Positions 1 to 55,735 of a stretch of 64,000 nt of DNA are shown in pieces (positions within the stretch are counted from its first letter, which is position 1; every line of letters starts with the position of its first letter). The stretch lies in NCBI RefSeq assembly GCF_032884065.1, contig NC_088868.1, forward strand, positions 39,300,867 through 39,364,866, read 5' to 3'. The stretch is from Artemia franciscana. Taxonomy: Eukaryota; Arthropoda; Branchiopoda; Anostraca; Artemiidae. The notes below the pieces were generated by a model. That model searched no databases. It was not told the origin of the DNA and saw only the letters and a list, made by a program, of their open reading frames with translations. The translations under genes and the position numbers were made by a program.

Positions 1-449
1 CAATATCTGATACTTTTGTAAGTAACAAAAGATAAAACTAAAATAACGCATAATTTTCGACAAAAAAACTGTGTCTTCATATACTAGATAATACAACGTA
101 CGTATCATTTCACACAATAATATGTGTCTTAAGTTGCTTCTCTTGGGTATAATATTATTTTTGACTTATTCTGATTCTTGATTTTCTATAGTTCGTTCTT
201 TACTGCACGAAGTAAGTAACAGACGAATTCTTTTCCGTTATTTAACAATAAAGGGCTACGTTAAAATTTCCATCAAGCATAAAGAATCATCAATTCGGGT
301 TGGGGGAGCTTCCTTGGTGGGTTAACTTCTCTATTACGGTAATTTTCTCTTATTTTAGATTTTAACGTTCCATTTTCTTGAAATTTGGAAAAATGTTTTT
401 TTTTATTTAATTTTAGCGTTTTTATTTAATACGCTAAAATTTTTGCCTT
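1..449. other. AT-rich DNA without recognisable gene
   Basis: Both strands show only short, stop-rich frames and homopolymer runs. No splice-flanked protein-like segment and no recognised repeat was found until the family A fragment that starts near 450. Confidence 0.5.
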
Positions 450-612
450 TTTTAAAAAGTAGAGCTAAGAGAAAGAGTCAAACTTTAGCGTACAGAGGGA
501 GGCGTTGTGGAAGAAAAGCCCCTTTCATATACGGAGTAATTTCTGCTCGTTTTAAGTTATAATGTCACTCCTTACTTTCATTTAAAAAACTATTTTTTTT
601 TTATTTAAATAC
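450..612 (+). repeat. Family A palindrome fragment (right arm only)
   Basis: The stretch from the 'agagtcaaactttagcg' motif to 'cactccttactttcat' matches the right arm of the palindromic head of the ~1.7-kb family A element seen in full at 31,113-32,855. The left arm and the rest of the element are absent, so this is a truncated relic. It is AT-rich on both sides and has no coding content. Confidence 0.7.
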
Positions 613-2410
613 GCTGTAAGAGCGAAAATTTAAATAATATATGTTGCTTCCATTAAAGTACACATAACAATTCTGCTTCTAGAAGGCTTAGAGGGTTTCA
701 GTTCTAGTCTTGTTTGTGGTATTTTTTTTTATTATTATTTATAGTTTGAATTGATTGTTCACTTTAGTATACATTCTGTTTGGGTTCTAGTTACTCATTG
801 ATAATTAATTCTGTTATTTTTATATTTAAATTGCTATTAACTTTATTTAGGGTTGTCTTTGGTTTAGTGGTGCTCTTTCCTTTTTTGAAAACATTTACTT
901 TTGAAAAGATATTTTACAAATTGGCATTCACTTGTTTTTAAATAACATTTTTTTTTTATTCAGTAGTAAAACTCATCGTAAGAATGAAAATTTCGACGTG
1001 GAATTTATTTTTTTGACGAATATTTTGCAGCAAATCTTAATTGAAGTTGTGCTACAGAATCCTGGATGGATAGGATGGAGGAATATTATCAAAACAAAAT
1101 CTGTAAGATTTTGATGAAAAAATTAAATGGAAAATGTGGGCCTTCTATAGGTATGAACCAATAAATAAATGAATCAATAAACACTGTAATAAATACAATA
1201 AATAAATGAAACTAGAAGCGAGAGGGAATAACAAATAAATATTCTAGTCAAACTAAAACACAAACAGAAACTGCTACACACAGGAGAAGGGCTAACACCG
1301 TCTAAGTCTTCTAAAGACCGGAACATCATTTGTGCTTTTCTAAAACAAAATAGAATTTGAGCGTTTTTCTTTTTAACATTAGTAAATTCAAAAAATATTT
1401 AGACTTACAAAGAAGAATATCTAAATAAAAATCTATACATAATATCTTTACGAATATCTATATAAAACAGTCTATCTGTATTCATTCATTATGACGACGT
1501 TTTTCTTTTTTTTATGTTATGAATCAAAAAATAGCTGAAAATACAAATTGTTTTCAGTAAAGAGCGAACGACGTTCTGGTGATTGAAAGGCATAGGGCCG
1601 ATTGCCCTAGTCTTCGTCGTGGAAATTTCTCTTCCTCGTCTACTCTTCATCGTGGTAATTTCGTGGTAATTTCTGCTCATTTTAAGTTTGACTTGATTAA
1701 TTGTACTTTCTGATCATTTTGGGTTTCAATTAGTCATTGATATTCAAGGTTGTTTTTTTCGAGTCAGAACAATTCTTTAAACTCATTTCCGCTCCCCTTT
1801 AGTTTAATTTAACTCCTAGCTGTTCTTTAAGGGCACTTATTTTTTCAGAAAAGTTTTTCAATTAAATATATGACTGATTTCAAAGTAAAGGTTTTTTTTT
1901 ATTGGGTAATAAAGGACTATTTGTAAATTTTTTCTTTTTGGTTCTTTTTCTTAAGAATTAAGATTTTAGCCCGACACTAACATTTTGTGCAGCAAATATA
2001 AGAATAATTTACTGGACAACTTATTATTTTCTTTTACTTTCTTTTATTTCATATTTTTCTATTTACCAAGATATGAATTATTTATAAGTTTCTGTGGTGT
2101 TTCAACTCTTGAATAAAAAAAAAAACTATTCTCTTGGAACGTAGGCTGAAAAGGTAGTACCAAGTTTTTTTTTGGCCCGAGGAGTTTTCTATTTATTTTC
2201 TCTTTATTCTATTTACTATATTCTATAAATTAACAATAGAATTTTGTACGGATGGAAAGGAAAGGAAAAATTTTGTTAGAAAAGATTTACGATTGGTAAA
2301 AATTTGAACCTTCTACACGGGTTTATCCCCCAACTTCATTTAAATCTAATACAGAAGAATAGAGGTTGACCTTTTACAGAAGAAGAGAAGGTTGACCTTT
2401 ATACTGCAAT
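613..2410. other. AT-rich intergenic DNA, no gene seen
   Basis: Only short open frames occur (for example about 60 codons at 932-1,114 and 1,489-1,680), with codon composition dictated by T and A runs. A stretch rich in 'aataaata' near 1,155-1,215 resembles the degenerate tail of a retroelement but has no body attached. I see nothing else in it. Confidence 0.45.
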
Positions 2411-2413
2411 TGC

Positions 2414-4386
2414 ACAAAAAAACAAGTTTTTTTAACTGAAAGTAAGGAGCGACGTTAAAACTTGAAACGAAAGAAATTACTCCATATATGAAAGGGGCTT
2501 TTCCTCATCAACCCCGCTCTTTACGCAAAGATATGACTCTTTCTCTTAATTCTACTTTCCAAAACAGTAAAAAACTCTAGCGTAAAGAGCAAGGCATTAA
2601 AGAGGAAAAGCCCCTTTCATATACGGAGTAATTTATGTTCGTTTTAAGTTTTAATGTCACTCCTTACTTTCATTTAAAAAAAATTGTTTTTTTTGTTTAA
2701 TTTCTGGACGTTTTTGAATTAATGTATGTTTTGATCTTGGCAAATAAATTTCATTTGTTTTGCTCTTTACGCTAACTTTCTAATGGTATTAAAAAGTAGA
2801 ACTGTGGCAAAGAGTCAAACTTTAGCGTAAAGAGCGAGGGATTGCGGAGGGGACAATCCATTTCATATACGGACTAATTTCTGTTCGTTTTAAGTTTTAA
2901 TCTCGCTCTTTACTTTCAGTTTAAAAAACTAGTTTTTTTATTTAATTTTTGAAAGTTTTTGTAATAATGCATGTTTGATTTTCACTCTCTGGACATAAAT
3001 TATTAAAATGAAATTTACATATTAATTCTTTTTTTGGCCAAATGAATTTCTCTTAGTTTTGATCAGACGATTTTGAGAAATAAGGGGTGGGGAAGGAGGC
3101 CTAGTGTCCTTCCAATTTTTCGGTTATTTAAAAAGGCAACTAGAGCTTTTAATTTTTAACGAATGTTTTTATTAGTAAAAAATACACGTAACTTAATAAT
3201 TAAGTTACGTAACTAATTATTATATTCTTATGTTTTTGTAATGTATATGAGGGGGTTTGTCCTCTCGTTAATACCTCACTCTTAATGCTAAATCTTAAGT
3301 TTTGTGCCAATTCCTTGAGAATGACCCCTGAATCAGAAAGGCCGTAGAATAAATAGTTGAAATTGTTAAAAATACTTTAGCATAAAGAGGGAGGTATCTA
3401 TCTCCTAACTACTTCGCTCTTTATGCTAAAGTATTTTTAGAACCCCTTATATGCGTAATAATCTCTGTTCGTCTTAAGTTTTAATGCTACTCCTTACTTT
3501 CAATTGAAAAAAAACTTTTTGATGTTTATTTTTTCAATGTATTTTTATAGTAATTCTAGAAAATCCCGCGACCTTTTCATTGAGTTTCTCTTCCATCATG
3601 ACATATTCCTCCACGGAAAGATCCTTCCACATAGTACCCTCCCCTGAAGCCCACCCCCAAACCGAAAAGATCCCCCTGAACACGTCTGTACACTTCCCAA
3701 AAACCAATACTGTATGTAAACACTGGTCAAGGTTTGTAACTTGCAGCACCTCTCCCAGGAACTCCGGGGGATTAAGGCACCCCCAGAGACATATTTATTA
3801 TAGTTTTCGACTATGCGGAACAAAATGGCCAAATTTTGATCCGCTGACTTTGGGAAAAATGAGCCTGGGAGGGGGCCTAGGTGCCCTCCAATTTCTTAGT
3901 CACTTAAAAAGGGCATTAGAACTTTTTATTCCCATTAGAATGAGCCCTCTTGCAACATTCTAGGACCACTTGGTTGATGCGATGACCCCTTGGGGAAAAA
4001 CGAAAAAATAAAAAATAAATAAATAAATAACCACGCACCCGTAATATGTCTTCTGGCAAAAAATACGAAATTCTACATTTTTGTAGATAGTAGCTTGAAA
4101 TAATTGCTGTAGGGTTCTCTGATACGCTGAATGCGATGATGTGATTTCATTAAGATTCTACAACTTTTAAGGGGTGTTTCCCCCTATTTTCCAAAATAAG
4201 GCAAATTCAGGCATGAGACGTTTGATGACAAAGACTTAATTTGATAAAACTTATATATTTAAAATCAGCATAACAATCCAATTCCTTTTATGTATCTATT
4301 AGTATCAAATTCCGTTTTTTAGAGTTTTGTTTACTACTGAGCCTGGTTGCTCCTTACTACAGTTCATTACCACGAAGTGCTTGATA
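2414..4386 (+). mobile_element. Family A element, copy 1, with a duplicated head
   Basis: It starts with a palindrome (2,418-2,690, of the type carrying 'ggggcttttcctc'). A second right arm of a different type (carrying 'tgcggaggggac') follows at 2,755-2,930. The usual family A body comes next, and the end is the degenerate 3' hairpin at about 4,357-4,380. The double head suggests nesting of, or recombination between, two family members. Open frames inside it (for example at 3,534-3,963 on both strands) recur in other copies only because the DNA recurs, and they are broken differently in each copy. I regard them as non-coding. Confidence 0.75.
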
Positions 4387-5510: not shown

Positions 5511-7249
5511 TTAAATAAAAAAAAGTTTTTTGAAATGAAAGTAAGGAGCGACATTAAAACTTAAAACAAACAGAAATTACTCCTTGTGTGAAAGGGGCTT
5601 TTCCTCCTCGACACCCCGCTCTTTACGCTAAAGTTTTTTTATTGTTTCAAAAATTAAAGTTGTGAAAAAGAATCAATCTTTAGCACAATGAGCGGGGTGT
5701 CGAGGAAAAAAAGCCCCTTTCATATGAGGAGTAATTTCTGTTTCTTTTAAGTTTTAATGTCGCTCCTTACTTTCATTTCAAAAGCTTGTTTTTTTTATTT
5801 AATTTTTGAAAGTTTTTGAATTAATGCATGTCTGATTTTGGCTCTCCGTACATAAATTATTAAATGCAATTTGCTATTAATTCTTTTTTTTTGGCTAAAT
5901 GGCTTTCTCTTAGTTTTGATCAGACGATTCTGAGAAATAAGGGGTGGGGAAGGAGGCTTAGTTGCCCTCCAGTTTTTTGGTTACTTATAAAGTTAACTAG
6001 AACTTTTAATTTTTAACGAACGTTTTTATTAGTAAAAAATATACGTAACCTAAGAATTAACTTACGTAACAAACTTTTATATTCTTATATTATTGATTAT
6101 ATATATGAGGGGGTTCGTCCCCTCGTTAATACCTCGCTCTTCACACTAAATCTTAAGTTTTGTCCCAATTCTTTAAGAATGACCCCTGAATCAGAAGGGC
6201 CGTAGAATAAATAGTTGAAATTACTAAAAATGATTTAGCATAAAGAGCGACGTATTCATCTCCTTCTAAATACCTCGCTCTTTATGCTAAAGTATTTTTA
6301 GAACCACTCACATGCGTAATAATCTCTGTTCGTTTTAAATTTTAATGCTTCTCCTTGCTTTCAATTGAAAAAACTTTTTCATGTTTATATTTTCATTGTT
6401 TTTTTTTAATAGAAATGCTAGAAAATCCTGCACCCTTTTTATTGAATTTCTCTTCCCCCATGAATATTTCTCCAAGGAAAGATCCTCCAATATAGCCCCC
6501 TCCCCTGAACCCAACACCCAAAAAAAAAACCCCTGAAAACGTCGGTACACTTCCCAATAACCATTACTGTATGTAAACATTGGTCAAAGTTAGTAACTTG
6601 CAGCCCCTCCCCCAGGGACTGTGGGGGGTAAGTCATTCCCAAAGACATAGCTATTATGGTTTTCAACTCTGCGAAACAAAATGGCTATCTCAAAATTTTG
6701 ATCCGTTGACTTTGGGAAAAATGAGCGTGGGAGGGGGCCTAGGTGCCCTCCAATTTTTTGGTCACTTAAAAAGGGCACTAGAACTTTTCATTTCCGTTAG
6801 AATGAGACCTCTTGCAACACTCTAGGACCACTTGGTCGATACGATGACCCCTGGGGAAAAGAAAACAAAAACAAAACAAACAAACAAATAAACACGTACC
6901 CGTGATTAGTCTTCTGGCAAAAAATATGAAATCCCACATTTTTGTAGATTGGACCTTGAAACTTTTACACAGGGTTCTCTGATATGCTGAATGCGATGGT
7001 GTGATTTTCGTTACGATCTATGACTTTTAGGGGGGTGTTTCCCCTATTTTTCAAAATAAAGCAAATTTTCTCAGGCTCTTAACTTTTGATGACAAAGACT
7101 AAATTTGATAAAACTTGTATATTTGAAATTAGTATAAAAATTCGATTCTTTTGATATATCTTTTAGCATCGAAATTCAGTTTTTTAGAATTTCGTTTACT
7201 ATTAAGCCAGGTCGCTTCTTACTACAGTTCGTTACCACGAACTGTTTGA
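5511..7249 (+). mobile_element. Family A element, copy 2 (full length)
   Basis: This is a complete copy of about 1,739 bp. It begins with TTAAATAAAA directly after an A, has a palindromic head whose two arms share the copy-specific variant 'gacaccccgct', and ends with the hairpin ACAGTTCGT-tacc-ACGAACTGT followed by TTGA and then a host T. A second, smaller inverted pair built on 'gctctttatgctaaagt' lies in the middle (about 6,230-6,300). It has no coding capacity. Confidence 0.85.
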
Positions 7250-15490: not shown

Positions 15491-15584
15491 CCCTTTTGAA
15501 ATTTCTATGACAATTTCTAACTGCCCTGATCGAACCAAAAAATAGCACATTGTGCCTGCATTGTTCTTTATTTAGGCACCGCTA

Positions 15585-17173: not shown

Positions 17174-17384
17174 CTGTAAGTAATACTTACAACTTTAGCC
17201 GTTGAAATTGGGTATGAACGTAGTTTCCTTATAATTGTAGAGCACTCGCTGTTTCGGTGAAAACGTGGTGTATCTCCATTGGAACCATCGAAAACATATA
17301 TTGGCTTAGAAATATAGACGATGTTGCTATATTTCTATACATAAAGCTGGGTAATTTAGCTAAAGAAATCTCGGCATTTTTTTT

Positions 17385-23351: not shown

Positions 23352-23935
23352 TCAAACAGTTCGTGGGAACAAACGTTGGGTAACAAACGTGGGTAAGGAG
23401 CGACCCGGCTCAATAGTAACCAAAACTCTAGAAAATAGAATTTTTATACCAATAGCAATATTAATAGAATTGCATTTTAATGTTGATTTCAAATATATAA
23501 GTTTCATCAAGTTTAGTCTTGCCCATCGAAAGTTACGAGCCTGAGAAAATTTGCCTTCTTTCAGAAAATAGGGGAAAACACCCCCTAAAATCTTAATGAA
23601 AAGTTCCCCCATAAAATCTTAACAGAATCTTAACGAAAATCACACCATCAGATTCAGCGTATCAGAGAACCCTATGGTTGAAGTTTCAAGCTCCTTTCCA
23701 AAAAAATGTGGAATTTTGTGTTTTTTGCCAGAAGACAGATCACGGATGCGTGTTTATTTGTTTATTTTTTCAGGGGGATCGTATCGACCCAGTGGTCCTA
23801 GAATGTTGCAAGAGGGCTCATTCTCACGGATATGAGAAGTTCTAGTGCCCTTTTTAAGTGACCAAAAAATTGGGGGACACCTAGGCCCCCTCTCACGCTA
23901 ATTATTTTTCCAAAGTCAACGGATCAAGATTCACT
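23352..23935 (-). mobile_element. Family A element, 3' part only
   Basis: In - orientation this is the last ~580 bp of family A, ending (at 23,352) in a damaged terminal hairpin with a local duplication of 'acaaacgtggg'. The palindromic head is missing, and the match stops at the 'ggatcaagattc' region. It lies 0.75 kb upstream of the DM4/12 exon at 24,686. Confidence 0.8.
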
Positions 23936-26006: not shown

Positions 26007-27678
26007 TCAAACAGTTCATGGTAACGAACTGTAGTAAGGAGCCACCCGGCTCAATAGTAACCAAAACTCTACATAGTGGAATTTTTATGTCAATAGTTAC
26101 ATCAAAAGAATCGCATCTTAATGCTGAATTTAAGTATATATGTTTCATCAAGATTAGTTTTATCCGTCAAAATTTACGACCCTGAGAAGATTCGCCTCAT
26201 TTTAGAAAATAGGGGGAAATATCCCATAAGAGTCATACGATCTTAACGAAAATCACATCATCAGATTCAACGTATCAGAAAAACATATTGTAGAAGTTTC
26301 AAGCCCTTATCTACAAAAATGCGGAATTTAGCATTTTTTGCCAGAAGACAAATCAAGGATGCGTGTTTATTTGTTTTTTTTCCCAAGGCTGGTCGTATCG
26401 ACTCAGTGGTCCTAGAACGTCGCAAAAGGGCTCATTCTAACGGAAATTAAAAGTTCTAGTGCCCTTTTTAAGTGACCAAAAAGTTGGAGGACACCTAGGT
26501 CCCCTCTAACGCTCATTTTTCCCCGAAGTCCCCAAATCAAAATTCTGAGATGGCCATTTTATTCACCATAGTCGAATAACCTAATAGCTATGTCTTTGGG
26601 GACGACCTACTCCCCCGCAGTCTCCATGGGAGGGGCTTCAATTTACAAACTTTGACCTGTATTTACATATATTAATGGTTACGGGGAAGTGTACAGACGT
26701 TTTCAGGGGTGGAGAGTTGAAGGGTGGGGGGTTACGTGGGATGATCTTTCAATGGAGGAACGTTTTATTGGGGAAGAGACTTTCTTGGAAGGGGGCCAGG
26801 ATTTTCTAGCATTATTTAAAAAAACAATGAAAAAATAAATATGAAAAGTTTTTTTCTGCTGAAAGTGAGGAGAAGCCTTAAAAACTAAAATTAAAATAAA
26901 TTATTACACATATGAGGGGTTTACCTCTTCGTAATACTTCGCTCTTTACGCTAAAGTATTTTTGTAATTTCAACTATTTATTCTACGGCCTTTTTGATTC
27001 AGGGGTCATTCTTAAGGAATTGGGGCAAAATTTAAGCTTTATTGTAAAGAGCGAGGTATCGACGAGGGGTTAGCCCCCTCATATACGCAATAAAAGCATA
27101 CAAATATAGAAGTTCGCTAAGTAGGTTAATTCGTAAGTTACGTATATTTTTTACTTGTGAAAACGTTCGTAAAAATTAAAAGTTATAGTTGTCTTTTTAA
27201 GTAATCAAAAAATTGGAGGACAACTAGGCCTACTCTCTCGCTCCTTTTTTTCAAAATCTTCCAATTAAACTATGAAAAATCCATTTAGCCCAAAAAATAT
27301 TAATATGCAAATTTCGTTTTAATTATTTATGCGTGGAGAGCCAAGATAAAAAAATGTATTAATTAAAAAACGTCCAGAAATGAAGCAAACAAAAAACAAA
27401 TTGTTTTAAATGAAAGTAAGGAGCGACATTAAAACTTAAAACGAACAAATTACTCCGTATATGAAAGGGGCTTTTCCTCCTCAAAGCCCCACTCTTTACG
27501 CTAAAGTTTTTTACTGTTCTAAACTGTAGAGCTGAGAGAAAGAGTCAAGCTTTAGCGTAAAGAGCGGGGCGTTGAGGAGGAAAAGCCCCTTTCATATACG
27601 GAGTAATTTTTGTTCGTTTTAAGTTTTAATGTCGCTCCTTACTTTCATTTTTTTAAAAATGTTTTTTTTTTGTTTAAT
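26007..27678 (-). mobile_element. Family A element, full-length copy in intron 1
   Basis: In - orientation it is complete. The terminal hairpin lies at 26,010-26,032, and the palindromic head is at about 27,405-27,665 with arms built on 'ggggcttttcctcctca'. The 5' end reads ATTAAAC next to an A. Length is about 1,672 bp. It is opposite in orientation to the DM4/12 gene and non-coding. Confidence 0.88.
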
Positions 27679-27983: not shown

Positions 27984-29195
27984 TCAAAGAGTTTGTGGTA
28001 ACGAACTGTAGAAAGGAGCGACCCGGCTCAATAGTAACCGAAGCTCTAAAAATAGAATTTTGATACCAACAGTTTCATTAAAAGAATCGCCTTTTAATCC
28101 TGATTTTCAGTATATAAGTTTCATTAAGATCAGTTATACCCATCAAAAGTTACGAGCCTGAGAAAATTTGCCTTATTTTTAGAAAATAGGGGAAAACATC
28201 CCCTAAAAGTTATACAATCTTAACGAAAATCACACCATCAGATTCAGCGTATCAGAGAGCCCTATTGTAGAGGTTTCAAGTTTCCATCTAAAAAATGTGG
28301 AATTTCGCATTTTTGGCCAGAAGACAGATCACGGATGCGTGTTTATTTGTTTGTTTGTTTTTTAACCAGGGGTGATCGTATCGACCCAGTGGTCCTAAAA
28401 TGTCGCAAGAGGGTTCATTTTAACGTAGATTAAAAGTTCGAGTGCCCTTTTTAAGTAACTGAAAAATTGGAGGGCACCTAGGCCCCCTCCCACGCTCATT
28501 TTTCCCAGAATTCACTGGATAAAAATTCTGAAATATCCATTTTATTCACCATAGTTGAAAAACCTAATAACTATGTATTTAGGAACGACTCACTCCCCCA
28601 CAGTCCCCGTGGGAGGGGCTGCAAGTTACAAACTTTGACCTGTGTTTACATATAGCAATGGTTACTGGGAAGTGTACAGACGTTTTCAGGGGGATGTTTT
28701 TTTTGCTTAGGGTGGAGAGTTGAGGGGAGAGGGGTACGTGGGAGAATCTTTCCATGGAGAAACTTGTCATAGGGGAAGAGAATTTCAATGAAGGGGGCGC
28801 AGGATTTTCTAGAATTATTTGAAAAAAAATGAAAAAATAAATATGAAAAGTTTTTTTCTACTGAAAGTAAGGAGCTGCATTAAAACTTAAAAATAAAAAA
28901 AAATTATTACGCATATAAGAGGTTTACCTCCTCGTTATACCTCATTCATTACGCTAAAGTATTTTTAGTAATTTCAACTATTTATTCTACGGCCTTTGTG
29001 ATTCAGAGGTCAAAGGTCAAAGTGTAAAGAGCGAGGTATTGACGAGGGTTGAGCCCCGTCATATACGCAATAAAAAAGTACGAATATAGAAGTTTGTTAC
29101 GCAAGTTAATTCGCAAGTTACGTACATTTTTACCAATGAAAACGTTTGTAAAAAATTTAAAGTTCCAGTTACTTTTTTAAGTAATCAAAAACTTG
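27984..29195 (-). mobile_element. Family A element, head-truncated copy in intron 1
   Basis: It has the same orientation as the copy at 26,007-27,678 and lies 300 bp from it. It runs from a degraded terminal hairpin (27,985-28,010) through the body and stops near the 'aatcaaaaacttgga' region, so the palindromic head is absent. Confidence 0.82.
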
Positions 29196-29684
29196 GAAGT
29201 CATATAAGGAACAACTTAAAGAATCAGGCTGACAATTTCAGAGGGCATTGGTGAGCTGAGTACACTCAAAAATTTAGATTTAGAGAGGGGACAGATTTCA
29301 GAGGTAAATTGAAAAAAGTTTGAATCAAGGCTATTAAAATTGAACATTTAGACCATATAGAGAACAACAAGTGAGGATAGAGCCAAAATATGTCAAAGGT
29401 ACAGGAAGAGGATGGTACTGACCAAAACTGGTAATAATACAATGAATGAAAATGTCCATACCAGATCAAATAAAAAATAAATTAAGCAGGAGAATTCTGA
29501 TGGCAGTAAAAATTCCTCCTAATTACACGAAACTTAAATGTGCGTATTTTAAATAAAGTATTTTTAAGCCAGCAATTGTTTATATCACTGGGAACAAACA
29601 AACTAACACAGGGACTTCAAAAACGGATTAATCTCAAGAGTAATGTTTTTCTCATTCTTAACTACAAATGAATTTATTTTCTAG
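29196..29684. other. DM4/12 intron 1, right part
   Basis: Unique-looking AT-rich DNA ends in the acceptor 'gaatttattttctag' for exon 2. A 67-codon frame on the - strand at 29,266-29,469 has no supporting signals. Confidence 0.5.
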
Positions 29685-31112: not shown

Positions 31113-32855
31113 TTAAATAAAAAAAACTAGTTTTTTTAACTGAAAGTAAGGAGCGACATTAAAACTTAAAACGAACAGAAATTACTCCGTATATGAAATG
31201 GGTTGTCCCCTCCGCAGTCCCTCGCTCTTTACGCTAAAGTTTGACTCTTTACCACAATTCTACTTTTTAAAACAATTAAAAACTTTAGCGTAAAGAGCGT
31301 GGGACTGCGGAGGGGACAACCCATTTCATATACGGAGTAATTTCTGTTCGTTTTAAGTTTTAATGTCGCTCCTTACTTTCAGTTAAAAAAACTAGTTTTT
31401 TTTATTTAATTTCTGAACGTTTTCGAATTAATGCATGTTTGATTTTGGCTCTCCGCACATAAATTATTGAAATGAAATTAGTATATTAATTTTTTTTGGC
31501 TAAATGGCTTTCTCTTAGTTTTGATCAGACGATTTTGAGAAATAAGGGGTGGGGAAGGAGGCCTAGCTGCCCTCCAATTTTTCGGTTACTTAAAAAGGCT
31601 ACTAGAACTTTTAATATTCAACGAACGTTTTTATTAGTAAAAAATATACGTAACTTAAGAATTAACTTACGTAACAAACTTTTATATTCTTATATTTTTA
31701 TTATGTGTACGAGGGGGTTTGTACCCTCGTTAATACCTCGCTCTTTACACTAAATCGTAAGTTTTGTCCCAATTCTTTAAGAATGACCCCTGAATCAAAA
31801 AGGCCGTAGAATTAATAGTTGAAATCACTAAAAATATTTTAGCATCAAGAGCGAGGTATCTATCTCCTCCTAAATACCTCGCTCTTTATGCTAAAGTATT
31901 TTTAGAACCCCTCATATGCGTAATAATCTCTGTTCGTTTTAAATTTCAATGCTATTCCTTACTTTCATTTGAAAAAACGTTTTCATGTTTATTTTTTCAT
32001 TGTTTTTTTTATAGTAATGCTAGAAAATCCTGCGCCCTTTTCATTGAATTTTTCTTCCCCCCTGACATATTCCTCAAAAGGAAAGATCCTCCCACAAAGC
32101 CCTCTCCCATCAACCCCACCCCCAAACCAAAAAATCCCCATGAAAACGTCTGTACACTTCCCAATAACCATTACTATATGTAAACACTGGTCAAAGTTTG
32201 TAACTTGCAGCCCCTCCCTCAGGGACTGTGGGGGAGTAAGTCATTCCCAAAGACATAGTTATTATGGTTTTCGACTATGTAGAACAAAATGGCTATCTTA
32301 AAATTTTAATCTGTTAACTTTTGGAAAAAAATGAGCATAGGAGGGGGCCTATTTGCCCTCCAATTTTTTGGTCACTTAAAAAGGGCACTAGAACTTTTCA
32401 TTTCCGTTAGAATGAGCCCTCTCGCGACATGCTAGGACCACTTGGTCGATAAGATGACCCCTGGGAAAAAAAAAACAAAAAAAAAACAAATAATTAAACA
32501 CGCACCCGTGATTTGTCTTCTGGCAAAAAATACAAAATTCCACATTTTTTAGATAGGAGCTTGAAATTTTTGCTATAGAGTTCTCTGATATACCGAATGC
32601 GATAGTGTGATTTTCGTTAAGATTCTGTGACTTTTAATGGATGTTTCCCCCTTTTTTCCAAAATAGGGCAAATTTTCTCAGGCTCGTAACTTTTGATGAC
32701 AAAGACTAAATTAATTGAAACTTAATATTTAGAATCAGCGTAAAAATTTGAATCTTTTGATGTATCTTTTAGCATCAAAATTCCGTTTTTTAGAGTTTCG
32801 TTTACTATTGAGCCGGGTCGCCCCTTACTACAGTTCCTTACCACGAACTGTTTGA
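31113..32855 (+). mobile_element. Family A element, best-preserved full copy
   Basis: Length is 1,743 bp. The parts in order are: TTAAATAAAA terminus after an A; a palindromic head with arms 31,121-31,242 and 31,279-31,401 that differ by a single base; the body with a second small palindrome at about 31,838-31,905; and a terminal hairpin at 32,832-32,853 followed by TTGA. Near the ends lie AGTAAGGAGCGAC (5') and its inverse (3', here with one change), forming a subterminal inverted repeat. There is no transposase-like frame. It lies in DM4/12 intron 2. Confidence 0.92.
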
Positions 32856-33184: not shown

Positions 33185-34019
33185 GATTCGTCCTGCGCCC
33201 TTTTCATTGAATTTTTTCCCCCATGGTATATTTCTCCAAGGAAAGATCCTCCCACATAGCCCCCTCCCTCAACCCTACCCCAAAAACCAAAAAAATCCCC
33301 CTGAAAACGTCTGTACACTTTCCAATAACCATTATTGTATGTAAACACTGGTTGAAGTTTGTAACTTGCAACCCCTCCCCCAGGGGCTGTGGGGGAGCAA
33401 GTCATCCCCAAAAACATAGTTATTATGATTTTCGACTATGCTAAACAAAATGGCTATCTCAAAATTTTGATCCGTTGACTTTTTGGAAAAAAATGAGCGT
33501 GGGAGGGGGCCTAGATGCCCTCCAATTTTTTAGGTCACTTAAAAACGGCACTAGAACTTTTCATTTCCGTTAGAATAAGCCCTCTTGCGACATTCTAGGA
33601 CCACTTGGTCGATACGATGACCCCTGGGAAAAAAAAACAAAAAAAAAACAAACAAATAAACACGCAACCGTGATTTGTCTTCGGGCAAAAAATGCAAAAT
33701 TCCACATTTTTGTAGATAGGAGCTTGAAACTTCTACAGTAGGGTTCTCTGATACGCTGAATCTGATGGTGTCCTTTTCGTTAAGATCCTACGACTTTTAG
33801 GGGGTGTTTTCCCCTATTTTCCTAAATGAGGCAAATTTTCTCAGGCTCTTAACTTTTGATGGGTAAAACTAATCTTGATGAAACTTATATATTTAAAATC
33901 AGCATTAAAATGCGATTCTATTGATGTAGCTATTGATATCAAAATTCAATTTTTTAGAGTTTTGGTTACTATTGAGCCGGATCGCTCCTTACTACAGTTC
34001 GTTACCACGAACTGTTTGA
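33185..34019 (+). mobile_element. Family A element, 3' half
   Basis: This starts at the 'cctgcgcccttttcattga' region of the body and runs to a perfect terminal hairpin (33,994-34,015) plus TTGA, with a host T following. The head is missing. It follows 330 bp after the full copy in the same orientation. Confidence 0.85.
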
Positions 34020-37860: not shown

Positions 37861-37965
37861 AATGACTTAGTATATTAATTTGGAACTTTCAAGAAGTTAA
37901 ATGGGAGATGATCAATTAACCAAAAAGGTGATATTTCTATGTTACCACTACTACTCCTACAACTG

Positions 37966-39470
37966 CATAAAGAGCGAGGCGTTGAGAGGGGAACAGTCCC
38001 TTTCATATAAGGAGTAATTTCTTTTCGTTTGAAGTTTTAATGTCGCTCCTTACTTTCCGTTAAAGAAACTAGTTATCTTTATTTAATTTCTGAAAGTTTT
38101 TGAAATAATGCATGTTTTGATTTTGGCTCTCCGCACATGAATAATTAAAACAAAATTTGCATATTAATTTATTTGTATGGCTAAATGGCTCTCTCACAGT
38201 TTTAATCGGGCGATTTTGAGAAAAAAGAAGCGGGGGTGACTAGGCCTAGTTACCCTCCAATTTTTTGGTTATTTAAAAAGGCAACTCGAACTTTTAATTT
38301 TTTACGAACATTTTTATTAGTAAAAATATACGTAGCTTACGAATTAACTTATGTAACGAACTTCTAAATTCGTATGGTTTTATTACGTATATGAGGGGAG
38401 TCACGCCCTCGTCAATATCTTGCTCTTTACACTAAAGCTTAAATTTTGTCCCAATTCCTTAAGAATGATCCATGAATCACAAAGGCCGTAGAATAGATAT
38501 TAATAAAATTACTTTAGCGTTAAGAGCAAGGTAATAGAGGGAGGTGAAACCCTCGAATGTGTAATGATTTCTGTTGGTTTTAAGTTTTAATGCTGCTCCT
38601 TATTTCCAGTTGAAAAAACAATTTCATATTTATTTTAAAAATTTTCCTAAAAATGTTAAAGAATTGTTCCCCCTTCATGGAAATTGTCTTTTTCCATGAC
38701 AGAATTCCTCCATAAAAAGCTCCCCCATTTAATCTCCTCCCCTCAAACCCTCCCCCTCCCAACCAAAAAATTCCCCTCAAAGCATCTGTACACTTCCCAA
38801 TAACCATTACTATGTGTAAACACTGGTCAAAGTTTGTAACTTGTAGCCCCTCCCACGGGTACTGTGGGGGAGTAAGTCTCCCCAAATACATAGCTATTCG
38901 GTTTTTCGACTATGTTGAATGAAATGGCTATATTAGAGTTCTGAGCCGGTGATTTTTGGATAAAAATGAGCGTGGGAGGAGGTCTAGGTGCCCTCCGATT
39001 TTTTTCACTTAAAAAGGGCACTAAAACTTTTGATTTCCGTTAGAATGAACCCTTACACGACATTCTAGGACCACTGGGTCGATACGATAACCTAAGTGAA
39101 AAAAAACAAATAAACACGCATCCATCATCTGTCTTGAAGCAAAAAATGCAAAATTCCATATTTTGTAGATAGGAGCTTGAAACTTCAACTGTATGGTTCT
39201 CTAATACATTGAATATGATGGTGAGAATTTTGTTAAGATTCTATGACTTTAAAGGGGTGTTTTCCCCTATTTTTGAAAATAAGGCAAATTTTTTCAAGCT
39301 TGTAACTTTTGATGGGTAAATCTAAGCTAAATGAAACTTATATATTCAAAATTGCCATTAAAATTTAATCTTTTTGATGTAATTATTGTTATAAAAATTC
39401 TGTTTTTAGAATGTCGGTCACTATTGAGCTGGGTCGCTCCTTACTACAGTTTGTTACCACGAACTGTCTG
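37966..39470 (+). mobile_element. Family A element lacking the left arm
   Basis: It begins inside the palindrome ('aaagagcgaggcgttgag', right arm) and runs through the whole body to a terminal hairpin at about 39,444-39,466 followed by CTGA and a host T. It is directly abutted by the TG/TC-rich minisatellite. Confidence 0.85.
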
Positions 39471-39471
39471 A

Positions 39472-43314: not shown

Positions 43315-43775
43315 TCAAGATTTTAGTACATTGTTATATAGCGTCCGAAAACTTGTGGATAGCTCGACACTGGAGGGTATTAAATTCCATTGAATTATAG
43401 ATTTATAAATTGGGAATCGCTGGGCGGAACTAGAGATACACCTGGGGACAATGAAGGAACGGTTGGATGAACGGAGACAGTGGCCTTCAGAATTATTACT
43501 ATTAAAATAAGATAATAAGTGGGGAGGAAGATTCTTATGGTAAGCGAAGTATGCAAGGGATAGATTTAACTTTTTGATGATTTGTTCAAAAGGGACAATA
43601 CCAAAATCTGAGTACAAGTCCTTGGTGGGATATAGTCGTGGCAACCGAAAAACTGCTTTGACGGCACGGTTTTGAGCAGATTTTAATTTATTGGTAACTG
43701 AAGGATAAGTATTGCCCCATACAGATCCGCAGTATGAGATACATGGGTAAATAAAAGAATAATAAAGGGTGACAA
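43315..43775 (-). pseudogene. ORF2 C-terminal part, out of frame
   Basis: The last ~150 residues of ORF2, including LKSAQNRAVKAVFRLPRLYP and ending before TGA/TAA near 43,315, lie one frame away from the RT part. The switch falls at about 43,750-43,765 in a run of T and A, so a single small indel explains it. Similar C-terminal 'thumb plus tail' segments follow the RT in many LINEs. It makes no product without the upstream part. Confidence 0.7.
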
Positions 43776-46409
43776 GGAATCGGGAGGAAGAAAATAATTC
43801 ACACGATTAATTATACTTACCTGTCGCAAAATTATGGCTCTGATATAGGACACATGTGTTACAAATGATAGGCAGGAGTCTTTGTGGACACCAAGAAACT
43901 TGGCAACTTCGACCTGCGGGAGGAGATTTGTAGAATATTTTAGGCCAAGTGCTGGCTGAACTTCGTTTTTTTTGTAATGGGTTTGAAATAATACCACCTG
44001 ACTTTCCTTGCTGTTAATGGTCATGCAGTTAACGAGACACCACTCCTGTACTCTATTCAGAAGGGTTTGAGTAGAGGTGACGACGGAGGGTAAATTAGGA
44101 CCGGTGATGAAAAAGTTGCTATCGTCAGCAAAAAGTACTGGGTGCACTGATGGGCCCAGGTCCGTAATCAAATCATTAATATAAAGGAGAAAAAGTATTG
44201 GACCAAGAACAGAGCCCTGTGGGACGCCCCTCCGGACAGGTAGGGGATGTGAAGTCACCCCACCCAGTCTCACACTCTGCACTCTACCAGAGAGATAAGA
44301 GCCGAACCATGAGAAAGGAACTCCGCGAATCCCTAGGTTATTGAGTTTACTTAATAAAACACTGTGATCAACCATGTCAAAGGCCTTTGAAAAATCCAGA
44401 AATAAGCCCAATACAGTATTTTTAAGGTCAAGTTGGGAACGTATAAACTGTGTGGCGTCTATTAGTGCATGAGCAGTTGAAAATTTGGCACGGAAGCCAT
44501 ATTGATGAGGAGAAATCAACGAATCTGATGAATGATTCCCAAATACAAAGGGAGAAAGACGTCGGAATATAATTCTCTCGAGCACCTTAGATATAACTGG
44601 GAGAAGTGAGATTGGACGATAATTGCTTATCTCAGACGGATCGCCTTTTTTATGAATCGGGATAACAATTGCTGATTTAAATATTTCTGGGAAGACTCAA
44701 TTGGTCATAGACAGGTTTGCTATGTGCACAATGGGTTCACAAATATAGGAAGATACGGTCCTAAGAAGCTTATTACTTATGCCAAAGAAGTCAGGTGTAC
44801 TACTATTAGAGAGAGATTCGATAACTTGACGCACCTCTTTGCGATCACTTGGAGAGAAAAACATGGATCTGGGATTCTTGCTAGGGTGTACTGACTGTGA
44901 GAAGGAACAGGAGTTAGCATTTGGAATATTAGTGAAATAATTATTAAAAGCATCCGCTACTAAAATTGGGTCAATTAATCTGCCACTGATGTCCCTAAGG
45001 TTCATAGGAACAGATCTTGAATTCCTTTTTTTTGAAAGGATTTCATTTATTGTAGACCAAATTTTTTGCAAGTTCCCTTTGCAGTGAGATATTTTTGAAT
45101 AATAATAATTTTTCTTTGCTTCCCGGATGATTTTGGTATATATGTTTTTGTATTTTTCATAATTAGTCAGGTCAATAACGCTACTGGTTTTGCAAGCTAA
45201 CTTATACAGGTAATTTTTTCGGTATGAAGAGATTATCAGGCTATTTGACATCCAGGGGCGTATATGGGTAGTTTTTCGGTTTGATTTACGAACTGGAAAG
45301 GTTGAACTAATAAGATCATTCAATCTCTGTGTAAAACTACTTGTGGCTGAATTAACATCCTGACAATCCAAAGTCTTGGACCAATCGAAGGATTTCAAAC
45401 AATCCGTGAACCGGTTCATATTCACAGTATTATATATTCTATTAGACGCACGGGTATTAGTTCTACGGGGTTGAGTAGCTGATAGGGAGGGTAAGGAAAG
45501 ATAGATTGGAAAGTGATCTGACAGGTCAGAAAATATTATTTTGGAGGACAGGTGGTTTCCCAGGGAAGTGCATACAAAAATGTTATTAATTAAAGTAGCG
45601 GTAGACCTCATGGGATCAACTCTAGTAGGAAAAAGAATTGTGGGAAGAAGACCACTTGAGGTAAATGTTTCAAAGAAGGTATCACTATCATTGTTATTGC
45701 TAACATTTAATAAGTTACAATTGAAGTCCCCAAAAACTATTGCCTTCTTTTGTGGTAAATTAATAAAACTAGAAAAATTATCAAACTGATTACAAAAGAA
45801 AGGTGTCGGAAATGAGGGTGGTTTATAAAATAACGAAAAAATAAAAGAATTCTCGTCTACACTTATGTCGACGATTATTGAAAAAATGCATCTATTATTT
45901 ATAGGTTGCGAGAACAAGAATTCGCAATCTAATTGTCTGGTGAATTTTAGACTTGATCGGATGTAAAGAGAAATGCCACCAGAGGACTTGGTTAATTTTC
46001 TTTCAATATGAATAGCTTGAAAGCCAGTGAGGGAAAATTCATTAGTATCATCAATTTCTGAAAGCCACGTCTCCGTTATTCCAATTATGTCGAAAGGGCA
46101 GTAACCATTTGTTAAAATTAAATCTTTAAAATTAGCCCACTTATACCGTATGCTTCTGATATTAAAGCAAATTACATTAAGTTTGGTCTCTTCCATTAGC
46201 TTAGGTTTCACATTTTTCACAAAATCAAAAGTGTCGAGATATTTACAGTTAATTTGGTTTAAAGGGCTATCGGAGCTAGCTAAGGTGTTGGTGGACAGAT
46301 TATTTTGGTCATTGTAATAATTAAAAACAACATTATTGCACAGTGACAAATTATTAAGAAACGTAAAATCTTGTAAAGTACTTGTACTTGTGTTTGTTTG
46401 ACTGTTCAT
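43683..46409 (-). pseudogene. LINE ORF2: AP-like endonuclease plus reverse transcriptase, one nonsense codon
   Basis: From ATG at 46,409, residues about 77-330 form an APE-like endonuclease (LNVICFNIRS, DIIGITETWLSE, IVFGDFNCNLL, SDLSDHFPIYLSL). A reverse transcriptase follows, with NYRPISLLPVISKVLERI, LGLFLDFSKAFDMVDH, GVPQGSVLGPILFLLYINDL and the catalytic LFADDSNFF. A TGA at 44,697-44,699 interrupts the frame between EN and RT; the reading frame on both sides is the same, so this is one point mutation. Near 43,755 the frame is lost again. With only two lesions in about 1,000 codons the copy is young. The enzyme would nick target DNA and copy its RNA in place. Confidence 0.88.
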
Positions 46410-46618
46410 TTCTTAAGCAGTAGTTTCGGTGCTTCTGGACATTTATACGAATAACAGGGGTGGTCGGAGGAGCCACAGAGAGCACATTTCATGACAAGTT
46501 GACACGGGTTTTCTTTGGAGTTCTGGTGGTCACCAGCGCATTTAGAGCATCTCGGGGAAGCTTTACAGTTATTTGCAGTATGGCCGTAGCACTGGCATTT
46601 GTAGCACTGGGTAGGCAA
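46406..46618 (-). CDS. LINE ORF1 C-terminus with CCHC zinc knuckles
   Basis: Seventy codons containing tandem Cys-His knuckles (CYKCQCYGHTANNC, CSKCAGDHQNSKENPC, CALCGSSDHPCYSYKC). These are typical of the nucleic-acid-binding ORF1 (gag-like) proteins of Jockey, I and related LINEs. It ends in TGA overlapping the ORF2 ATG (ATGA), which suggests coupled translation of ORF2. The frame is separated from the upstream ORF1 part (46,712-46,972), so this ORF1 is broken. Confidence 0.8.
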   Translation of the reverse strand: MPTQCYKCQCYGHTANNCKASPRCSKCAGDHQNSKENPCQLVMKCALCGSSDHPCYSYKCPEAPKLLLKK

Positions 46619-48654: not shown

Positions 48655-48903
48655 TTTGTTAACACCTGGACTGCTTATCATTTGAGAGATAACAGAATAT
48701 TAGCTTCTTATGAGCAAAAGAAACATTTCGGTCATTCTATCTATTTTTTTTTCTATTTTATACAATGATTTAAAAGCGGGTGGGTTGGGGGGCGGCAGCA
48801 ACCCAACTTCCTCTCCTAATTCCTCTACGAGGTGTACAGGAATTATTAAATTACATCCACCATGGATTGTAGAAAAACGTACAAAAATAATATGAAAAAA
48901 ACT
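48655..48903 (+). repeat. Family C repeat, copy 2
   Basis: Near-identical to 47,846-48,050, it runs directly into the left arm of the inverted repeat. Open frames on both strands (48,700-48,939) recur with the repeat and are not gene-like. Confidence 0.75.
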
Positions 48904-49360
48904 TCGTTTTTTTAAAGAGTTAAAGAGGCTGCGTCCCAAAGTCGAACCTTAAAACGTACAGGAATTAGAAGAGGCAGTTGGGGGGCTGCCGCCCCCCAAA
49001 CCCCCCGCTTTTAAAGACCCCTTTGTACAGTTTTTTTTTGTGGGGGGACTTCATTGTTACTAATTACTAGTTTCGGCGCAATGGTTCTCCTGTCCTCTTG
49101 TGTTTAGCATTTTTCGAAGTTATTCCATTATTCATTCATTTCAATTTTTCGTTAATTAAAAGAGGGCCTTTCCGAAGTAAAGAGCGGGGGGTTAGCAAAA
49201 AAAAACAAAAAACCTGTACAAAAGAGTCTTTAAAAGCAGGGGGTTTGGGGGGCGGCAGCCCCCCAACTGCCTCTTCTAATTCCTGTACGTTTTAAGGTTC
49301 GACTTTGGGACGCAGCCTCTTTAACTCTTTAAGAAAACGAAGTTTTTTTCATATTATAAC
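48885..49360. repeat. Inverted-repeat element with G-rich hairpins
   Basis: The left arm (about 48,885-49,035) and right arm (about 49,205-49,360) are inverted copies about 150 bp long, separated by ~170 bp. Each arm reads from 'atgaaaaaaacttcg' through 'gaggctgcgtcccaaagtcg' and 'acgtacaggaattagaagag' to a small hairpin of six G's and six C's, then 'cttttgtacag'. Arms are nearly identical. It looks like a foldback or MITE-type element; no transposase is present. Confidence 0.85.
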
Positions 49361-49916
49361 TGAATAGGACGGTTTTGCGGGTGGGGGAGGTTTCATATCA
49401 GAAATAGTTTGCACGACTGACCTTGCTTTATGGTGCTCAGCGAAGCTTTTAACAAAGTCTATTTGAATATTTCGGCCCTATATCTAAGGGCTGTCTTCAG
49501 CAAAGAAAATAATAAACAATAAAACACTTACAATAAAAGTTTTTGGTTAAAAAACAATTTTTTTTTAGATAGCCATCATTACTTCTTAACGAAAAGTTCA
49601 GCCAATACTGTGTAATAAAAGCTAACATTTTACAAGCTAAAAAGGTTCATTCATTGAACTAACTGTATTTATTAAAAAATGGAATAAGTTCTTATTGCGA
49701 TATTTTCCTTCTCTGCAATTAATATTGTAGTTCTTTTGGGATTGGACTTGGGCTCTTAGACGAGTAACTGGGGTTTTATCCTTACCGGAATTGAGAAGAT
49801 TCATTTGCTCAAATTACTTGTGAATACAAAACGTAAATTGTTTTTTAAACAAACTTTTTTCAGTTTTGAAGTAATTTTTCGGAATATAAGGTAGGTAAAT
49901 CGCACTTGTGGGATAA

Positions 49917-51586
49917 TTAAATAAAAAAACGAGTTTTTTTTTAAATGGAAGTAAGGAGCGACATTAAAACTTATAATGAAAATAAATTACTCCGAATATG
50001 AAAGGGGCTTTTCCTCCTCAACGCTCTTTACGCTAAGGTTTGACACTCTACTTCTTAAAACAGTAAAAAAAATTAGTGTAAAGAGTGGGTCATTGAGGAG
50101 GAAAAGTCCCTTTCATATACAAAGTAATTTCTGTTCGTTTTAAGTTTTAATGTCACTCCTTAATTTCATTAAAAAAAAAAAACTTGTTTTTTTATTAAAT
50201 TTCTGGACGTTTTCTTAATTAATGCATGTTTTGATCTTGGTTCTTCACACATAAATGATTAAAACGAAATTTGCACATTAATTTTTTTTGGCTAAATGGC
50301 TTTTTCATAGTTTTAATCGGAAGATTTTGAGAAAAAGGGAGAGAGGGAGGAAGTCTAGTTGCCCTCCAATTTTTGATTACTGAAAAAGACAACTAGAACT
50401 TTAAATTTCTTACGAAAATTTTCATTAGTAAAATATATATGTAATCTACGAATTAACTTACGTAACAAACTTCTACATTCCTATGTTTTTATTGAGTATA
50501 TGAGGGATTTGGCCCCTAGTCGCTACCTCATTCTTTACACTAAAGCTTAAATCCTGTCCCAATTCCTTAAGAATGGCCCTTGAATCACAAAGAACGTAGA
50601 ACAAATAGTTGAAATTACTAAAGATAGTTTGCGTAAAAAGCGAGGTATTACAAGGAGGTAAGCCCCTCATATGCGCAATAATTTCTATTCTTAAGCTGTA
50701 ATGCTGCTCCTCACTTTCAGTAGGAAAAACGTCTCATTTTTTTCATTGTTTTTTTTTAAATAATGCTTAAAAATCCTGTGCCCTCTTCATTGAAAGTTTC
50801 TTCCCCCATGAGAAGTTTTTCCATGGAAAGATCCTCCCACGTAACCCCCCACCTCGACTCTCCCTCCCAAACCAAAATATCCTCCTGAAAACGTCTGTAC
50901 ACTTCCCAGTAACCATTACTATATGTAAACACAGATCAAAGTTTGTAACTTGCAGCCCCTCCCAAGGGGACTGCGGGGGAGTAAGTCGTTCCCAAAGACA
51001 TACTTATTAGGTTTTCCGACTATGGTGAATAAAACGGTTATCTCAGAATTTTGATCAAGTGACTTTGGGGAAAAATGAGCGTGGGAGGGGGGCTAGTTGT
51101 CCTCCAGTTTTTGGTCGCTTAAAAATAGCACTATAACTTTAATTTCTGTTGAAATGAGCCCTCTCGCGAAATTCTAGGGCCACTGGGTCGAAACGATCAC
51201 CCCTGGGGAAAAAAACAAAACAACAAATAAACACGCATCCGTGATTTGTCTTCAGGCAAAAAATGCAAAATTCCACTTTTTTTAGATAGGAGCTTAAAAT
51301 TTCTAAACAAGGTTCTCTGATACGCTAAATCTAATGGTTTTATTTTCGTTAAGATTGTATGACTTTGGGGGGTGTTTTTTTTCCTATTTTCTAAAATGAG
51401 GCCAATTTTCTCAGGCTTGTAAATTTTGATAGGTAAGACTATTCTTGATTAAAGTTATATCTTTAAGATGAGCATTAATGTTTTTTTTAATGTAATTATT
51501 GGCATCAAATTTTCCATTTTTTAGAGTTTTGGTTACTATTGAGCCGGACCGCTCCTTACTACAGCTCGTTACTACGAACTGTATGA
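49917..51586 (+). mobile_element. Family A element inserted in the Penelope-like element
   Basis: This is a 1,670-bp copy with palindromic head (about 49,925-50,190), body, and a terminal hairpin (about 51,561-51,582) followed by ATGA. Removing it and joining A(49,916) to T(51,587) gives a sequence that aligns without any gap to the homologous, uninterrupted stretch at 54,750-54,815 (reverse complement). The insertion therefore caused neither a duplication nor a deletion of target bases. Its ends are thereby fixed to within one base. Confidence 0.92.
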
Positions 51587-51633
51587 TTCGAGTCGTTTTC
51601 TGGTGTGGGATTTAAGGCTTTAGAAGAATGCTT

Positions 51634-54334: not shown

Positions 54335-55735
54335 TAGTTCATGGACGATGCAATTTCCGTTTGGAATTATGGCGAACTTAAAGGTTTTCTAGAACATATA
54401 AAAACTTACAATAGAAACATGCCATTTACTCTAGAGACCGAAACAGATGAAAAAATACCTTTTTTTTAGATGTGTCGATAATACGCAATGTGAATGAGTT
54501 TGATTTTAAGGTTTACAGAAAACCTACGCATAATAATAGATACCTTCACTTCAAATCTAATCATCCTCCACAGGTTAAAAGAGGTGTGGTAATATCTCAT
54601 GTGGATAGAGCACTTAATATCTGTTTAGAGCCGTATATTAAAAAAGAATGAAATTTTATCACAGACCTACTTTTTGGCATCGGGTACCCAATTTCTCTCA
54701 TAAATACTTTTATTGCTCAAAAAGTAAAGAAGCATTCTTCAAAAGCCTTAAATCTCACACCAGAAAACGATTCGAGTAATCTCAAAAGCATGATTTACCT
54801 ACCTTATATTCCGAAAATTACTTCAAAACTGAAAAAAGTCTGTTTTAAAAAAAATTTACGTGTTTCACAAGTAATTTAAGTATAATAAATTTTCTCGATA
54901 TGGATCTTCTGTATGGATAAAACCCCAGTTATTCGTCTAAGAGGGGTGTATCAAATACCATGTAGTCGTGGAAATTATTAGATTGGTCAAACCCACCAAA
55001 ATTTAGGAATAAGTTTACAGCAACACAAAGAAAGTATTGAAAAAGCATTAAAATCTAAAAATAATTCCATATCTTTTTATTCAGCTTTAAGCAATCATAT
55101 TTTTGAAAATCCAAATCATCATGTTGTATTTAACGAAACAATTATAATTAGCAATGACCAAGGAATTAAACATACTGTCCACGAGGCAATCGAAATCAAA
55201 CGAAACTTAAATAATAATACATCCCTAAATAGAGACTTGGGTGAATACACACTCGACCCTATGCACATAAAATTAATTACGAAAAATAATCCAATTCAAA
55301 ATAAAACAAAAATAGAAACGAATAAAAACAAGCCCAATCCCAAAAGAATTACAAGATTAGCTGCAGAGAAGGCAAATATCGCAATTAGGAACTATTCCAA
55401 TTTTTTGTAAATACAGTTAGTTCAATAAATGAACCTATTTAGCTTGTAAAATGTTGGATTTTATCACACAGTCTTGGCTGAACTTTTCGTTAAGAAGTAA
55501 CGATGCTAAGGCTATCTTAAAAAAAAGAATGGATTTTAAACCGAAAACTTTTATTGTAAGTGTTTTATTGTTCATTATTTTCTTTGCTGAAGACAGCCCT
55601 TAGATATAGGGCTGAAATATTCAAATAGGTTTTTTTGCTTCACTGTTTTGGGAAAAAAGTCCTCATTATTCTCTCTTCTGTAGTGGTATTATGGAAAGGG
55701 AGTGTGGTCTTAGTCATTATTTCTCTCAGTTAGCA
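54335..55735 (+). mobile_element. Penelope-like element, + strand copy, 5'-truncated
   Basis: It begins inside the RT ('catggacgatgcaatttc', corresponding to the catalytic box) and continues through the decayed C-terminal half of the RT (54,340-54,900), the GIY-YIG region (54,930-55,410) and the terminal repeat (55,330-55,623). It then runs into a short piece of the N-terminal start (55,640-55,730), as expected of tandemly arranged or circularly permuted Penelope copies. It is the uninterrupted homologue used to define the family A insertion site. Confidence 0.78.
54930..55410 (+). pseudogene. GIY-YIG endonuclease domain of the Penelope-like element
   Basis: The frame reads GVYQIPCSRGNY then a TAG, then IGQTHQNLGISLQQHKESIE, matching the GIY-YIG layout (G-x-Y ... 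Y-I-G-Q-T ... R-x-x-E-H) with the first tyrosine pair partly lost to the stop and R/E positions altered. A helical tail ends in NPKRITRLAAEKANIAIRNY and TAA at about 55,410. Penelope-like elements use such a nuclease to open target DNA. The in-frame TAG within the active site argues against activity. Confidence 0.75.

Follow-up and report, generated by a model that had tools for sequence, protein, structure and literature searches.

Rolling-circle transposons are classified by their ends and by whether their target is A^T or T^T. Canonical Helitrons begin with TC and finish with CTRR, insert between A and T, and carry a hairpin about 11 nt before the 3′ end. Terminal hairpins of the parvovirus/AAV type, in turn, are palindromes whose inner end repeats the terminus and whose loop occurs in two orientations. 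HINE, DINE-1 and Cg_HINE elements are described, in the accessible parts of two reports, as non-coding and abundant, with subterminal inverted repeats of 11-15 bp and a short palindrome behind the 3′ repeat; they occupy TT or T-rich sites without duplicating them (PMC4067079, PMC7492417). For Helitron2 and the FoHeli elements, the available text of a further source mentions a hairpin at each terminus together with asymmetric inverted repeats close to the ends, with a target of TTTT^T or TTTT^C for Helitron2, an AT-containing target for FoHeli1/2, and FoHeli 5′ hairpins of only a few base pairs (PMC5148889).

Here we describe family A, an abundant, gene-less mobile element of the brine shrimp Artemia franciscana. 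According to the available text of PMC11492255, rolling-circle elements account for 8.81% of the assembly of this species, and the G+C content of the female assembly is 34.71%. The element was studied in a single stretch of 64,000 nucleotides, called the window below (G+C 34.5%), of which 13,852 bases are family A-like when partial matches are counted, and in copies sampled from the whole genome.

The reference copy of the window (the 49917 copy; Table 1) is preceded by A at 49916 and followed by T at 51587. On re-checking the sequence, its coordinates, these flanking bases, the TTAAAT start and the 3′ hairpin were found as the first-pass annotation of the window had given them. Two finer points of that description hold in part. 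The hairpin with a 9-bp stem and the 4-nt tail are present, but in this copy the stem has a mismatch and the tail reads ATGA instead of TTGA; likewise, the subterminal repeat and its inverse do lie near the two ends, 33 nt and 26 nt from them, but the 3′ one carries two mismatches. In family A, these inverted repeats are 13 bp long and the 3′ repeat stands directly before the hairpin. The “unusual palindromic head” of the same annotation does exist, and is more remarkable than a single window could reveal. The first ~283 nt fold on themselves (-80.3 kcal/mol, z -16.7, for this copy, whose 3′ end gives a modest fold, z -3.0). The arms of this head are 99 nt long and 84% complementary, with a spacing of 71 nt. 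The outer arm starts at element base 1, and the inner arm closes with the inverted terminus (one base altered in this copy), which is followed by TTTCTGG.

Table 1. Family A copies, parts of the 49917 copy and related features. Positions are those of the window, except in the last row (contig:position).
Feature	Position	Strand	Remark
Partial head	430..609	+	
Composite copy	2410..4384	+	head 2410-2741 flip; partial second head from 2762 flop; body and 3′ end
Full copy	5511..7249	+	loop reversed (flop)
5′-truncated copy	23352..23932	-	diverged 3′ hairpin
Full copy	26007..27677	-	flip
5′-truncated copy	27984..29203	-	
Full copy, second head group	31113..32855	+	flip
5′-truncated copy	33191..34019	+	
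Copy truncated within head	37965..39471	+	
Full-length family A copy (TTAAAT ... ATGA)	49917..51586	+	ends in common with genome copies
Palindromic 5′ head	49917..50199	+	self-comparison and folding
5′ subterminal repeat AGTAAGGAGCGAC	49950..49962	+	
Inverted subterminal repeat stretch, 25 bases, head inner arm	50142..50166	-	2 mismatches
Unit U1	50294..50417	+	resembles U2
Palindrome P2	50489..50681	.	second and decayed; internal control
Unit U2	51032..51154	+	resembles U1
3′ subterminal repeat	51548..51560	+	inverse of AGTAAGGAGCGAC, two mismatches
3′ hairpin	51561..51582	+	9-bp stem with one mismatch, 4-nt loop
4-nt tail ATGA	51583..51586	+	TTGA in 42 of 47 distinct 3′ ends
Uninterrupted Penelope-like copy (empty site)	54577..54943	-	aligned to joined flanks of the 49917 copy
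Weak PF23343 matches, second larger Rep-type protein	C6:2730453, C6:2740889, C76:535701, C3032:15611, C10:1770637		

Within the window, the pattern of the 3′ end is found eight times at no more than three mismatches, against none in 100 shuffles, so that the hairpin near the terminus can be recognized at this threshold in 8 of the 9 window 3′ ends; the ninth (23352, minus strand) is more diverged and is followed by C. The base next to the other eight is T in six cases. Complete 5′ ends are preserved in four copies (those starting at 5511, 27677 on the minus strand, 31113 and 49917), each preceded by A, and these full copies are 79-88% alike in pairwise comparisons.

The window holds other repetitive material as well. 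A further palindromic stretch at 48861-49363 (48887-49343, 76% against its own inverse) is weakly similar to the family A head, and arrays with a unit spacing of very roughly 260-290 bases, whose units resemble U2, occur at 12194-15513 and, outside the window, in the fetched stretch L060 (6691-8479). Long satellite-like arrays with units of 234 and 182 bases extend over 17351-21115, and a fairly intact LINE is represented on the minus strand (43683-46412) by long open frames in which reverse transcriptase and endonuclease domains occur.

The first-pass annotation had read the 49917 copy as an insertion into a Penelope-like element, a second copy of which keeps the uninterrupted sequence with no gap at the junction. 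This filled and empty pair is borne out by the alignment of the joined flanks to the second copy (minus strand, 54943-54577), in which 317 of 372 columns are identical (85%) and none of the 13 gap columns falls at the junction, the alignment being ungapped for 37 bases on the left and 200 on the right. In one open frame next to the element, an RVT_1 match stays below the cut-off; the Penelope label otherwise comes from the first-pass annotation.

The genome search covered an assembly of 1.27 Gb in 6468 contigs. Family A was sampled at 40 scored places of 31,587 first-look candidates, the window copy included and with a bias to relatives of the 49917 copy, and five neighbouring stretches of ~10 kb were added. 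Of 41 outer 5′ ends, 6 were unparsable and 35 were parsed, one of which (also after A) was left out because its last six flank bases are the same as another's. In the 34 that remain, the base before TTAA is A in 33 (binomial P 2e-15). The base after the 3′ end, once a single duplicate had been removed from 48 ends, is T in 37 of 47 distinct cases (P 1e-10), A in 6 and C in 4.

A gap-free empty site was obtained for 10 of the 23 full copies, and a duplication for none; the other 13 are silent, with no usable empty site in the sequences examined. Nine of these sites were retrieved by a script, and the tenth, that of the window copy, which falls below the strict identity filter of the script, was shown by separate alignments; spanning matches for L012 and L003 proved to be the element's own ends and were not counted. 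Five of the sites lie inside other family A sequence (L005, L014, L019, L025 and L032), whereas those of L002, L008, L010 and L027 are in related sequence, at the locus of the copy itself or in another part of the sample. Thus the absence of any target-site duplication or deletion, proposed from one locus, is sustained by ten. Moreover, the empty site of L032 is A^A and that of L027 is A^C, and both filled copies start with TTAAA. Since neither empty site has a T, both T's belong to the element, so that the target is A^T-like and a TT target is ruled out. With this, flank alignment and empty sites in the fetched relatives settle in favour of A^T the choice between A/T and T/T that the first-pass annotation had left undecided. 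In short, the A of the target is near-invariant, and the next T is preferred but not obligatory.

Two other modes of insertion were considered and discarded. A TA duplication, hinted at by several flanks (ta ... ta), is ruled out by the empty sites. Target-primed retroposition of a non-LTR type, with duplication of the site, was brought to mind by the many matches without 5′ ends: 23 of the 48 3′ ends stand in matches that stop short of the 5′ end, some of them tails of interrupted copies. It is ruled out by the ten empty sites without duplication and by the fixed TTGA end, and copies without the 3′ side are also present. As side observations, the separate family A copies L019 and L005 are nested insertions into other family A copies, both at one and the same head position (consensus TAA^TGTC), and L015 and L030 have a common right flank (TTAAGACGGTC...), which may reflect a duplicated region.

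The trait that is new here is the palindromic head, with consensus arms identical within each of two groups of heads and a reversible loop. It spans ~283 nt, from element base 1 to the inverted copy of the terminus. The arms were compared in 42 heads (44 of 53 have the 5′ start, and L027 and L042 were set aside): 33 make up a main group, 3 a second group, and 6 stand outside both. Over 96 nt, the consensus arms show 0 differences in the main group and 0 in the second, whereas 9 columns separate one group from the other; both arms have therefore changed together. The mean distance between arms is 0.071 within a copy and 0.099 between copies, the former being lower than in all of 10,000 permutations (lowest 0.084), which ignore subfamilies. 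The arm closest to a given arm is its partner in the same head in just 8 of the 42 cases, since those of other subfamily members lie almost as near. Furthermore, among 98 predicted pairs in 22 heads, 27 have changed on both sides with pairing kept; covariation contributes little to the score (-1.78 of -154.08), and a small set of related heads accounts for many of the double changes. A long head that stays self-complementary in spite of sequence change provides a record in which one can read whether single-strand hairpins undergo copying, repair or recombination over the lifetime of a rolling-circle element.

As for the loop, 45 of 53 heads carry it in one orientation (flip) and 8 in the reverse one (flop). 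On a tree of 51 bodies (w_2410 and L038_2749 were too short to be placed), orientation has changed at least 5 times, 3 of these changes being forced by branches with support of at least 95, and it is clustered, only 13 to 17 of 500 shuffles giving a value as low. So few changes on the tree indicate that loop inversion is repeated but rare. One subgroup contains 39 flip heads and 1 flop head, and a parvovirus-like 50:50 flip at each round is accordingly ruled out. Arm distance is not ranked with the length of the end branch (Spearman 0.20, P 0.22, in 40 copies; -0.03 in the 34 on short branches). This missing correlation counts against a reset of the arms at each insertion; the means of the 34 copies agree (0.0605 for arms, 0.0600 for twice the end branch), the corresponding values for all 40 being 0.074 and 0.086.

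The second palindrome, P2, offers an internal control, imperfect because it is shorter and more decayed. Its loop is forward in all 54 scored copies and reversed in 0 (copies with a loop score under 25 were skipped and stay uncounted), and the likeness of its arms in 25 full copies is 0.72, against 0.89 for the head. In the open-licence literature, covered mostly through titles and the beginnings of abstracts, we found no description of a long palindromic, loop-inverting Helitron head, nor any mention of the AGTAAGGAGCGAC motif in the literature searched.

A Rep-helicase element combining the TTAAAT 5′ end with the 3′ hairpin, envisaged in the first-pass annotation as the autonomous partner, was not found among the top-scored candidates or by exact patterns. 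A profile search of the genome with PF14214 gave 7435 first-look candidates, and the best 150 of them were scored, with nearly equal results. The four full stretches that were fetched (L058-L061, on contigs C6, C4, C4 and C13) represent one canonical Helitron, with intact frames of 1663-1688 aa, Rep and PIF1 domains in both frames scanned, and ~99% likeness among the four copies over a shared ~5.4 kb. Given its intact frames and this likeness, the autonomous canonical Helitron of the genome has probably been active recently. Its 3′ end, GGGGTGGCGC-GAA-GCGCCACCCC-AACAG-CTAG, is unlike that of family A, and its 5′ end lies, at an approximate position, within a TA/TCTA repeat.

A second, larger Rep-type protein was reached with PF23343, which gave 68 matches, including weak ones (about 30-31 bits, for a cut-off of 27.8) in open frames of 1747-2701 aa. 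One of the long frames has a DUF6570 match in its N-terminal 600 residues, the region scanned. The 3′-side stretches of the 2.7-kaa element (L066-L069) contain no family A end of its own, and the similarity between two of its copies stops, at one locus, at a family A copy in reverse orientation. For the 2492-aa frame of C10, the end was looked for and not located.

The exact-pattern search for the 3′ repeat and half of the hairpin, with upstream sequence other than family A, returned 21 places, most of which, to judge by their letters, resemble family A sequence with a small indel or an internal deletion. Four of them were fetched: L062 and L064 are family A, and L063 and L065 have in common only the last 38-39 nt; these two are tentatively read as truncated family A copies, their boundary being partly set by the search pattern. 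The 5′ repeat with another interior occurs at 17 scattered places, among whose letters no multi-copy second family is evident. Viral contigs (one exact pattern) and phages were likewise searched for family A, and nothing was found. As pattern searches need exact matches, a diverged partner would be missed.

The explanation that we prefer, and regard as very probable, is that of a non-autonomous Helitron-like element: family A would move by a single-stranded rolling-circle (HUH/Y-transposase) route, with a Rep acting in trans and a palindromic head that becomes homogenised. From anatomy and by exclusion, the rolling-circle part of this reading is well supported. The ends, the target, the lack of duplication, the identity of the consensus arms and the loop inversions are direct observations, from which we infer the chemistry, the trans-acting Rep and the mode of homogenisation to be as follows. 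A Rep-helicase supplied in trans, in a genome that does contain Rep-helicase proteins, would nick before TTAAA at the 5′ end; the strand would be peeled off up to the hairpin and TTGA, and inserted without duplication behind an A and, in most cases, ahead of a T. In the source elements, the head of ~283 nt is palindromic to the very terminus, and its single strand is expected to form a single long hairpin. Recombination or copying between the two arms would keep them identical and would sometimes invert the loop.

Several other explanations have to be weighed against this one. That family A is a true Helentron derivative, of the HINE/DINE-1 class, moved by a Helentron Rep-helicase-endonuclease, is suggested by the 13-bp subterminal inverted repeats, the hairpin right after the 3′ repeat, the lack of duplication and the many copies, all of which recall those elements as far as the available text describes them (PMC4067079, PMC7492417). 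The sites described there are TT or T-rich, however, whereas the left base is A in 33 of 34 family A ends, and exact patterns found no Rep element with family A ends, so that we hold this origin to be doubtful. A transposase of the abundant canonical Helitron that tolerates TT...TTGA ends could also carry family A. Both kinds of element lie in AT-rich sites compatible with A^T, and the 7435 first-look Rep candidates, with intact 1663-1688 aa frames and probable recent activity, would provide the enzyme; the 3′ end of this Helitron (the GGGGTGGCGC hairpin, AACAG-CTAG) is nevertheless so unlike that of family A that such a carrier is considered unlikely. Far less credible is a cut-and-paste origin with no duplication of the site. 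The accessible text on ATon (PMC3422177) and Spy (PMC4482050) gives AT or AAATTT as targets, but family A has no terminal inverted repeats (TTAAAT versus TTGA), which rules out membership of these two groups, and its target, with mixed bases at left positions -3 and -2, does not correspond to AAATTT.

For the head itself, other explanations may be considered. Its arm identity and loop inversion could be due to ordinary chromosomal recombination or gene conversion between inverted repeats, unrelated to transposition, and we see the chances for and against as evenly balanced: inversions are rare and track the subfamily, and close inverted repeats may behave in this way regardless, but P2, in the same element, has 0 inversions in 54 scored copies. 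The weight of this last argument is lessened by the fact that the arms of P2 are less alike, and P2 is therefore less prone to recombine. By analogy with parvoviruses, a hybrid of rolling circle and rolling hairpin could be imagined as well, in which the end of the inner arm would be a Rep resolution site and hairpin transfer would homogenise the arms and flip the loop; we judge it to be quite improbable.

Returning to the Helitron-like reading, its place among known systems can be delineated. The first-pass annotation had proposed a non-autonomous element of Helentron type. Of this, the rolling-circle superfamily stands, by virtue of sharp ends, clean empty sites, the lack of duplication and the conserved 3′ hairpin, but the filing under Helentrons does not, given that the TT target fails. 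Since canonical ends, a TT target and the Helitron2 target are all absent, family A is placed among Helitron-like elements as a non-canonical variant, rather than with the Helentrons. With the canonical Helitron (Helitron1) it shares A-T insertion without duplication and a 3′ hairpin; it differs in having TTAA in place of 5′ TC and mostly TTGA in place of 3′ CTRR, a hairpin 4 nt from the 3′ end, and a long 5′ palindrome. With HINE, DINE-1 and Cg_HINE, as described in the available text, it has in common subterminal inverted repeats, a 3′ palindrome, absence of duplication and abundance; it departs from them in its A^T target, in its TTAAA...TTGA ends, and in that their 5′ structure is a short inverted repeat, whereas here a palindrome of ~283 nt reaches the terminus. 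Family A thus joins Helitron targeting to a Helentron-like subterminal anatomy, which makes these features separable. The asymmetric repeats and the hairpins at both ends (head and 3′ hairpin) are a Helitron2 feature, but the TTTT^T or TTTT^C target attributed to Helitron2 in the accessible text does not agree with the left A of 33 of 34 ends, and the terminal sequences are other ones. Finally, the head would be analogous to parvovirus/AAV termini in that its inner end repeats the terminus and its loop is found in two orientations, although in family A a single end bears the long palindrome and inversions are rare.
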